Below, piece after piece: positions 17,881-27,017 of a stretch of DNA of 64,000 nucleotides (the stretch's first letter is position 1; each line of letters starts with the position of its first letter). Source of the stretch: Natrinema salsiterrestre (lineage in GTDB: Archaea > Halobacteriota > Halobacteria > Halobacteriales > Natrialbaceae). Both the position numbers and the translations under genes were made by a program. The notes beneath the pieces are model-generated. The model did not search any database and was not told the DNA's origin. It saw nothing but the letters and a program-made list of their open reading frames with translations. The stretch lies in contig NZ_JAMQOT010000003.1 in assembly GCF_029502005.1 (NCBI RefSeq), positions 124,001 to 188,000 of the forward strand, in the 5' to 3' direction.

Positions 17881-18171
17881 ATGAGCGCGACCGAACCGAA
17901 CGCCGACGTCGACGACGCCGCCGAGTCCGACGAGACCGGCGACGGTGGGGGCTCGGACGGCTCAGTCTCCGACGTTCCGCCCAGCGCGAAACTGGTCTAC
18001 AAGGTCCTCGAGTACGAGGCCCAGCTGACCCAGGAAGGGATCGCGGCCGAATCCCGGCTCTGTCCCCGGACCGTCCGCTACGCGCTCGGGAAACTCGAGG
18101 ACCGGGGGCTCGTGACCAGTCGCGCGTGCCTCGAGGACGCTCGCCAGTCGAAATACCGGATCGCCGAGTAG
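17881..18171 (+). CDS. Winged-helix (MarR/TrmB-like) DNA-binding protein
   Basis: A 96-residue protein with an acidic, low-complexity N-terminus (about 1-35) and one winged helix (about 38-94). The core is KLVYKVLEYEAQLTQEGIA, then LCPRTVRYALGKLEDRGLV. Haloarchaea carry several such single-domain regulators. No ligand domain is present, so it may be a chromatin-like or promoter-specific binder. It precedes the structured RNA candidate by about 180 bases and may be unrelated to it. Confidence 0.8.
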   Translation: MSATEPNADVDDAAESDETGDGGGSDGSVSDVPPSAKLVYKVLEYEAQLTQEGIAAESRLCPRTVRYALGKLEDRGLVTSRACLEDARQSKYRIAE

Positions 18172-18319: not shown

Positions 18320-18328
18320 GATATAAGT
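18320..18328 (+). promoter_or_regulatory. TATA element for the RNA candidate at 18349
   Basis: GATATAAGT lies about 27 bases before the first stem of the structured RNA candidate, the spacing expected for an archaeal start site. Confidence 0.45.
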
Positions 18329-18348
18329 TAACACCTGTAGAATTTTTA

Positions 18349-18450
18349 TCCGGAAGGCAGTTCCAACGAAGCGGCGGGCATGCAGTGAAATGCCCCGGGT
18401 GATGGGACACCCGGGAGCTGGCTTCCAAACACGAGCCGTTTGCAAGCCAT
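18349..18450 (+). ncRNA. Structured RNA candidate with three-way junction
   Basis: Three stems close on each other. The outer stem is GGAAGGCAG (18352-18360) with CTGGCTTCC (18418-18426), with one mismatch. Hairpin 1 is GGGCAT (18376-18381) with ATGCCC (18390-18395). Hairpin 2 is CGGGT (18396-18400) with ACCCG (18409-18413), loop GATGGGAC. AAACA follows the outer stem. A second pairing, GGCTT (18420-18424) plus AAAC (18427-18430) with GTTT (18438-18441) plus AAGCC (18444-18448), competes with the outer stem. The ACA just after a stem, and a UGAUG...GA-type loop, recall an archaeal H/ACA guide RNA. The competing stem recalls a riboswitch. No coding frame fits here. Transcription and class are not shown by sequence alone. 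Confidence 0.5.
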
Positions 18451-18567
18451 GTTCCACTTACGCCCGGCGAAATATAAACTCCTCGAACGGCGACAGAATC
18501 CCGTGCGAACACCGGTCACGCTCGAGTCTCGATTCCGGCGACTGCGGCACGACGTCGGGAGGGATCG

Positions 18568-18786
18568 ATGAGCGACAAAGACGAGGAGGACGGCGACCCG
18601 AGCGCCGACCCCTCCTCGACCGCTGCGAGGAACTCACCGGCGGGGCGCGACCCACCTCGGTGTCCTCGCTGTGACACGCCCATCGGGCTGGTCGTCAGTT
18701 ACGGTCCGATCACCCACGAGGCCTCTCCGTGTGGCTGTCCGGTCTCCGCTGCCGTCCTCGAGGGGATCGAAGACGACACGGAGTAG
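18568..18786 (+). CDS. Small cysteine-rich protein (72 aa)
   Basis: The protein has a disordered acidic N-terminus (about 1-25) and a compact C-terminal half with PPRCPRCDTPIGLVV and SPCGCPV, enough ligands for one zinc. The ATG at 18568 follows a TATA element (AATATAAAC, about 18471-18479), giving a leader of roughly 65 bases. It resembles other conserved haloarchaeal short zinc proteins, but I cannot name the family. Its leader lies just after the structured RNA candidate, so a cis-regulatory link is possible if transcription reads through. Confidence 0.65.
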   Translation: MSDKDEEDGDPSADPSSTAARNSPAGRDPPRCPRCDTPIGLVVSYGPITHEASPCGCPVSAAVLEGIEDDTE

Positions 18787-26391: not shown

Positions 26392-27017
26392 CGACGTCCC
26401 ACCCCGATCGTGCGCGACTCGTTCATACTATCAGTACAGTCCGAACACGTGACCTTCAATATTGGCTTCGTCACGACCGGTGAGTCGACGGCCATGCCGG
26501 TCACGCGTCGGCGGTACTGTCGGTTCGATCTCCGCGAGCACTGATCTCCCGTTCCCGACTCGCTCGCGGAGACGGGACGGGTCATGTTATGTGTGAACAT
26601 ACGCTGAAAAGGATTATATTACTGTCGTCTGATGCTCTAATCGTTCGCCGACCGATGATCCCATCCATCCCACCGATCCGCATCCCTGACCAGCGTCCGT
26701 CAGGGACGCGGATCGCAACGGCCGACCCCGGAGACGACTACGGGGACGGAACCGGGCACGGCGGGGGTGGACGGAATCCGAGCCGGTCATCGCGGCCGGG
26801 ATCGGTCGGAATCGGCTCCGTCCGCGCCGCGTAGACCGGTGCTCGGCCGGAGCCGACCGGATCTGGTTTTCGGGACGCGTCTCCTCCGTCTGCCAGGCGA
26901 GTTCGGCGGTCGGTCGGCACGGGTTACGACGGCGCGGGGATCGCTTTCCCCCGTGGTGTACTGGGCAACACGCGGGCACCGGGCTCGAGCGTCGAGTTCG
27001 ACTCTCGACGGGGGAGT
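26392..27017. other. 626-base intergenic stretch with hairpins
   Basis: It contains the dyad TATGT-GTGA-ACATA (26588-26601), a TATA-like GATTATATTAC (about 26614-26624), and two strong hairpins at 26675-26714 and 26726-26745. An 81-codon frame across it (26589-26834) is Pro/Arg/Gly-rich and not convincing as a protein. Confidence 0.4.
26645..26760 (+). ncRNA. Candidate small RNA with two hairpins
   Basis: GATCCGC-A-TCCCTGAC (26675-26690) pairs with GTCAGGGA-C-GCGGATC (26699-26714) around an 8-base loop, with only one mismatch in 16 positions. A second stem, CCCCG (26726-26730) with CGGGG (26741-26745), follows. A TATA element about 25-30 bases before 26645 gives a plausible start. The structure is seen; that it is transcribed is inferred. 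It could instead be an attenuator or a remnant of an insertion end. Confidence 0.35.

Follow-up and report, generated by a model that had tools for sequence, protein, structure and literature searches.

The window, i.e. the whole 64-kb stretch of Natrinema salsiterrestre DNA that was analysed, contains a structured RNA element at 18349–18451 (142349–142451 in contig numbering, covariance model R1). It is flanked on one side by a MarR-type helix-turn-helix gene and continues on the other into a short ORF and a zinc-ribbon gene. The sole tRNA of the window, a tRNA-Arg (ccg), lies at 26946–27017. The features of the locus, with the respective evidence in brackets, are:

17881–18171, strand not given: MarR-type helix-turn-helix gene, one flank of the element
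18322–18327, + strand: TATA element TATAAG, putative promoter of the leader transcript (P1 5' strand 30 nt downstream of the TATA start)
18349–18451, + strand: leader RNA element with the AUG as its 3' end (R1 match with 88.3 bits, E 7e-18; R2 match with 71.7 bits)
18352–18364, + strand: S1, 5' strand of stem P1, GGAAGGCAGUUCC (P1 covariation, swap tests)
18376–18395, + strand: hairpin P2, GGGCAU/AUGCCC, arms 18376–18381 and 18390–18395 (pair covariation)
18387–18389, + strand: conserved GAA in the P2 loop (kept in all three alignments)
18396–18413, + strand: hairpin P3, CGGGUG/CACCCG, arms 18396–18401 and 18408–18413 (pair covariation)
18414–18426, + strand: S2, 3' strand of P1, GGAGCUGGCUUCC (swap tests, fold energies)
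18427–18441, + strand: upper part of hairpin P4, AAAC/GUUU, arms 18427–18430 and 18438–18441 (arm swap test)
18429–18431, + strand: ACA of the window copy, 3 nt past the outer stem (sequence)
18442–18448, + strand: S3, GCAAGCC, start-codon-proximal strand and presumed start-site sequestor (S2:S3 swap tests)
18449–18571, + strand: leader ORF of 40 codons, MFHLRPAKYKLLERRQ... (stop TGA at 18569–18571 overlaps the next ATG as ATGA)
18468–18485, + strand: degenerate hairpin P5 inside the leader ORF, CGAAAU AUAAAC UCCUCG (broken in the window copy)
18568–18786, + strand: small zinc-ribbon protein of 72 aa, CPRC...CGC, presumed final target of the switch

An initial annotation of this region had described a TATA element, a stable outer stem around two adjacent hairpins, an ACA after this stem and a competing helix that uses the 3' strand of the stem. 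All four were found. The outer stem P1 is paired at 12 of 13 positions in the window copy and encloses P2 and P3. The rival helix joins GGCUUCC (18420–18426, the last 7 nt of S2) to S3 and is extended by AAAC/GUUU. Two points had been overlooked: the 3' end of the rival helix abuts the AUG at 18449–18451, which opens the ORF overlapping the zinc-ribbon gene, and the element is a member of a large family.

With enforced pairs, the window copy reached −41.1 kcal/mol with P1 and −38.9 kcal/mol with S2:S3. The two folds differed by no more than 5 kcal/mol in 75% of the near and 54% of the distant copies, calculated for 1 M NaCl, from which the molar KCl of haloarchaea differs. The exchanging part is the outer GGAAG:CUUCC; the inner base pairs of P1 can be retained alongside S2:S3.

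Two covariance models were built, R1 from 30 copies and R2 from 50 distant copies. R1 detected 28 copies in the window genome with 60–88 bits, and the next match had 20 bits. With blastn, matches were found in 67 of the 125 genomes of the organism's family (Natrialbaceae), with many copies each. R1 matched 112 of the 392 genomes of the order Halobacteriales and R2 matched 232 of them (72 of 95 genera); per-genome copy counts in these large searches are lower bounds, with part of the candidates scored. In a sample of 247 genomes of the phylum, all R2 matches were inside the order. The plasmids pNRC200 (Halobacterium) and pNG700 (Haloarcula marismortui) gave no match to the RNA. A few copies have no AUG or are broken (L016, L077).

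Neither the window nor 40 loci with near and distant copies matched an Rfam 15 family at the gathering threshold, and the window element had no match even at E 10. No description of the element was found in the literature covered on haloarchaeal riboswitches, structured leaders, candidate structured RNAs and zinc-finger proteins; subscription papers and preprints were mostly outside this coverage, so an earlier description is possible. In distant copies, a TATA-like sequence mostly starts 28–29 nt ahead of the element start (53 of the 66 scored). Because of this spacing, we expect the 5' end of the transcript at the structured RNA or immediately ahead of it. The leader RNA is a previously uncatalogued structured RNA, predicted to lie at the front of mRNAs in most haloarchaea.

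Folded as a single sequence, the window element was only mildly unusual (z −2.05; 8 of 200 shuffles were as stable). As the fold is only slightly stabler than shuffles, the case for an RNA was made by comparison, and the evidence from the copies places the element far beyond chance. Covariation across homologous copies had been suggested in the initial annotation as the check on the stems, and these were found to change with compensation. In 50 distant copies, 94.7% of the cells of P1-P2-P3 were paired and two-sided changes occurred in 20 of the 23 pairs, with only 35–47% pairing in slid-partner controls. For 27 copies on which R2 had not been trained, the corresponding values were 94.9% and 21 of 23. 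The pair counts come from alignments that had been fitted to the P1-P2-P3 structure, and the copies are themselves related. Permutation counts are for these reasons not true probabilities.

Because the alignments were structure-fitted, an alignment-free swap test was also used, in which the longest Watson–Crick run between two strands was compared within and between copies (2000 permutations). Both S1:S2 and S2:S3 paired better within than between copies in the near, the distant and the independent sets (0 of 2000 permutations). For S2:S3, 52 copies from further loci gave 6.04 within and 4.37 between copies (0 of 2000). The S1:S3 control had no such preference, with 848 of 2000 permutations and, for the 52 further-loci copies, 1812 of 2000. 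The S2:S3 helix was never included in any covariance model.

The strand S3 next to the AUG is a copy of S1, the 5' strand of P1. All three strands change jointly between copies: GAAGCC/GGCUUC/GAAGCC-AUG, GAAGACC/GGUCUUC/GAAGACC-AUG, AAAGACC/GGUCUUU/AAAGACC-AUG and AACGCC/GGGGUU/AACCC-AUG. The upper arms of P4 had 4.67 consecutive pairs when matched and 3.27 when swapped in 75 near copies (0 of 2000). A third alternative, the self-hairpin P0 of the 5' strand, was weakly supported (0 of 2000 in near copies, 13 of 2000 in distant copies). Outside the helices, conserved bases are limited to the GAA of the P2 loop and the P3 apex, and the sequence of the three-way junction is not conserved. The P3 apex GUG..CAC is near-invariant, and the pairs below it covary in distant copies. 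Conservation outside the helices is lower than in most metabolite aptamers. At the level of sequence comparison, the two-state anatomy of the element is established.

The AUG at the model end is the annotated CDS start in six plasmid genes (L308, L374, L377, L378, L379, L380). The annotation of a seventh gene (L375) begins 108 nt downstream of this AUG in the same frame, and two homologous copies (L309, L373) have no annotated gene on that strand. In plasmid records (L307, L310 and others), the leader ORF and zinc ribbon are mostly absent from an incomplete gene table, and sometimes a wrong-strand ORF is annotated over them.

In the window genome, 26 of the 28 copies run into a short ORF with a CxxC..CxC zinc ribbon after it. 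A zinc ribbon is recognisable in 98 near copies; among these, the stop of the leader ORF overlaps the zinc-ribbon start in 93 (60 via ATGA), and the two are fused in frame in another two (L010, L295). The overlap measures 4 or 8 nt, and the leader ORF has 33–55 codons. Overlaps of the ATGA type couple translation strictly in Haloferax volcanii (PMC6728339). The overlap seen here is alike, whereas the upstream partner is an ordinary gene there and a short leader ORF under a putative RNA switch here. No clear selection at the peptide level was found for the leader ORF. As variability was flat over the three codon positions (0.38, 0.40, 0.38), we read the leader ORF as serving to couple translation, not as encoding a conserved peptide, with selection probably acting on the open frame and the overlap only.

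Codons 7–13 of the leader ORF in near copies carry a further hairpin, P5, with the consensus CGRGAY AUAAAC GUCYCG. Its third pair is compensated: of 75 near copies, 43 have G-C and 26 have A-U there. Most near copies have an intact P5; in the window copy and its close homologue (L002), the hairpin is broken.

Common to ORFs of unrelated proteins downstream of distant copies (e.g. L120, L129, L311, L331) is a nucleotide element, CAAGARSGUAUCG, at +25 to +37 from the AUG. Its U at +33, a third codon position, occurs in 46 of 65 copies at a background of 17% (p 2.5e-21), and its A at +29 in 61 of 65. A scan for pairing between this element and the leader gave no clear signal. It is possibly a protein or RNA binding site.

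Neither Pfam nor NCBIfam has a family for the zinc-ribbon protein of the window. In distant families, the target gene begins directly at the AUG. These targets include SWIM zinc fingers in Haladaptatus, a CxxC protein before a RAMP-like protein in relatives of Halorubrum and Haloarcula, as well as OB-fold, Tat-signal and other small proteins. At least two CxxC/H pairs were present within the first two ORFs in 26 of 60 distant copies. On this simple census, zinc binding by the downstream proteins appears to be common, not universal. Homologues of the downstream proteins were absent from sequenced phages, and no defence or NCBIfam families were assigned to them (PADLOC, NCBIfam).

Haladaptatus plasmids (NZ_CP085302.1, NZ_CP085339.1 and others) carry SWIM zinc-finger genes at as many as 25 places each, and several of these genes, not all, are preceded by the RNA. 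In the CxxC arrangement, the second protein is conserved and RAMP-superfamily-like (weak, Pfam E 0.044), has no PADLOC or NCBIfam match, and stop and start usually overlap (L180, L185, L186, L188, L191, L317, L318, L324, L328, L330, L333). One further copy (L030) has a HalOD1-like domain fused to the zinc ribbon (Pfam E 0.023); in L016 such a domain was seen by eye just upstream.

The leader RNA is probably a cis-acting two-state switch that controls access to the start codon. A translational on/off switch is the best explanation because of the position of the element, the exclusive covarying helices that end at the start codon, the conserved compact domain and the near-equal energies of the folds. 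The transcript would begin at the structured element. In the first state, P1 (S1:S2) would close the P1-P2-P3 domain and leave S3 and the AUG free. In the second state, the outer half of S2 would leave S1 and join S3, forming P4 up to the AUG, and the ribosome would be blocked. Translation would be turned on or off by a signal that makes the P1-P2-P3 domain more or less stable. In the window genome, the switch would reach the zinc-ribbon protein via the leader ORF by termination–reinitiation, and in the other families it would act on the AUG of the target gene itself. Haloarchaea are mostly without Shine–Dalgarno sequences. We infer that the leader is transcribed, that control is translational and that P1 is the on state, the latter because the AUG is accessible when P1 forms.

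The archaeal riboswitch considered in the initial annotation is supported as far as sequence comparison reaches. Three features expected of a riboswitch were found, namely a 5' leader before the start codon, a covarying folded domain of three helices and a mutually exclusive, likewise covarying rival helix that reaches the start codon. We do not claim a riboswitch in the strict sense; on paper, the element would work like one. A small molecule or an ion might well be the trigger, with a chance not far below even. A protein bound to the conserved P2 and P3 loops is a lesser, still serious candidate, while temperature or salt alone is an unlikely trigger. Only tentatively do we suggest that the element represents a new class of riboswitch, which would be the first natural one of haloarchaea; one common signal would then gate the Shine–Dalgarno-free start codons of a large set of scattered genes for small proteins, most of them zinc-binding.

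A protein-operated leader would depart from this explanation solely in the operator of the switch. Here, a regulator (maybe the zinc-finger product, a ribosomal or another RNA-binding protein) would hold one fold via the P2 GAA and the P3 apex, in autogenous or global control. The conserved unpaired bases are indeed in the hairpin loops and not in the junction. Moreover, almost all copies of the window genome precede paralogous small zinc proteins, which fits feedback, and many small zinc-finger proteins are known in haloarchaea (PMC10716476, PMC11241148). However, the distant downstream proteins are unrelated in fold (SWIM, CxxC with RAMP-like, OB-fold, Tat-signal), and a single self-binding product therefore cannot account for all copies. 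We consider a protein operator rather unlikely.

The near-equal predicted energies in most copies would also suit a thermosensor or salt sensor, in which the balance of the folds itself responds to temperature or ion strength and no ligand is needed. Halophiles meet changing salt. For plain melting, however, the conserved P2 loop and P3 apex would be superfluous, and both exclusive helices, including the competing P1, are compensated across very different sequences. Such a sensor is quite improbable.

A guide or other free small RNA that lies before the gene by chance is hardly credible: the fold is compact, has its own TATA and, in the window copy, an ACA near the outer stem as in box H/ACA RNAs, but 123 of 132 copies lack the ACA, the strongest constraint on the 3' side falls on the strand touching the AUG, this AUG opens an ORF in almost all copies and Rfam gave no match. 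The H/ACA guide RNA proposed in the initial annotation was rejected because the ACA is not conserved (8 of 82 near and 1 of 50 distant copies, 9 of 132 in all); the RNA runs directly into the ORF, and its site is an mRNA leader. Equally far-fetched is a dispersed mobile DNA repeat whose inverted repeats merely resemble RNA stems: one genome holds 28 copies and many megaplasmids carry the element, but 20 of 23 pairs are compensated, the TATA spacing and the AUG position are fixed, flanks and downstream genes are unrelated, and no terminal repeats or transposase are shared.

The switch preferred here, with its two states and the start codon at its end, can be compared with known systems. Translational riboswitches (e.g. 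TPP and SAM-type) and the archaeal fluoride riboswitch (crcB) likewise have a P1-closed leader domain that shares its 3' strand with a rival helix covering the start. Their rival helix reaches the Shine–Dalgarno sequence, whereas the one described here ends at the AUG itself. A further difference is that the leader RNA has no Rfam match and that a genome can hold as many as 28 copies, which precede small genes, either for zinc-binding proteins or uncharacterised. The fluoride riboswitch of Thermococcus kodakarensis is named as the only experimentally determined natural archaeal riboswitch (PMC8241225).

Archaeal ribosomal-protein leaders (Halobacteria S15, eL15 and L4; PMC7247131) are also structured leaders found by covariation, one of them in Halobacteria. 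They precede ribosomal-protein operons and bind the product, whereas no ribosomal-protein gene was among the genes observed after the leader RNA. A ribosomal-protein leader was accordingly ruled out, the downstream genes being those for zinc ribbons, SWIM, CxxC and other small proteins.

Overall, the leader RNA looks like a widespread riboswitch-like on/off switch for small, often zinc-finger, proteins. Structured leaders have been judged not typical in haloarchaea (PMC4983044), and Eckert and Weinberg remark that very few cis-regulatory RNAs have been found or predicted in archaea (PMC7247131). This picture would be contradicted by an unlisted leader class that is present in three quarters of the sampled haloarchaeal genera and, in some genomes, controls dozens of small proteins without a known role. 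It would offer a natural system for Shine–Dalgarno-free start-codon control in molar salt. Moreover, it would define a regulon of small zinc-finger genes and correct the annotation for many small ORFs now left out of it, and it would provide a native expression switch for haloarchaeal genetics.
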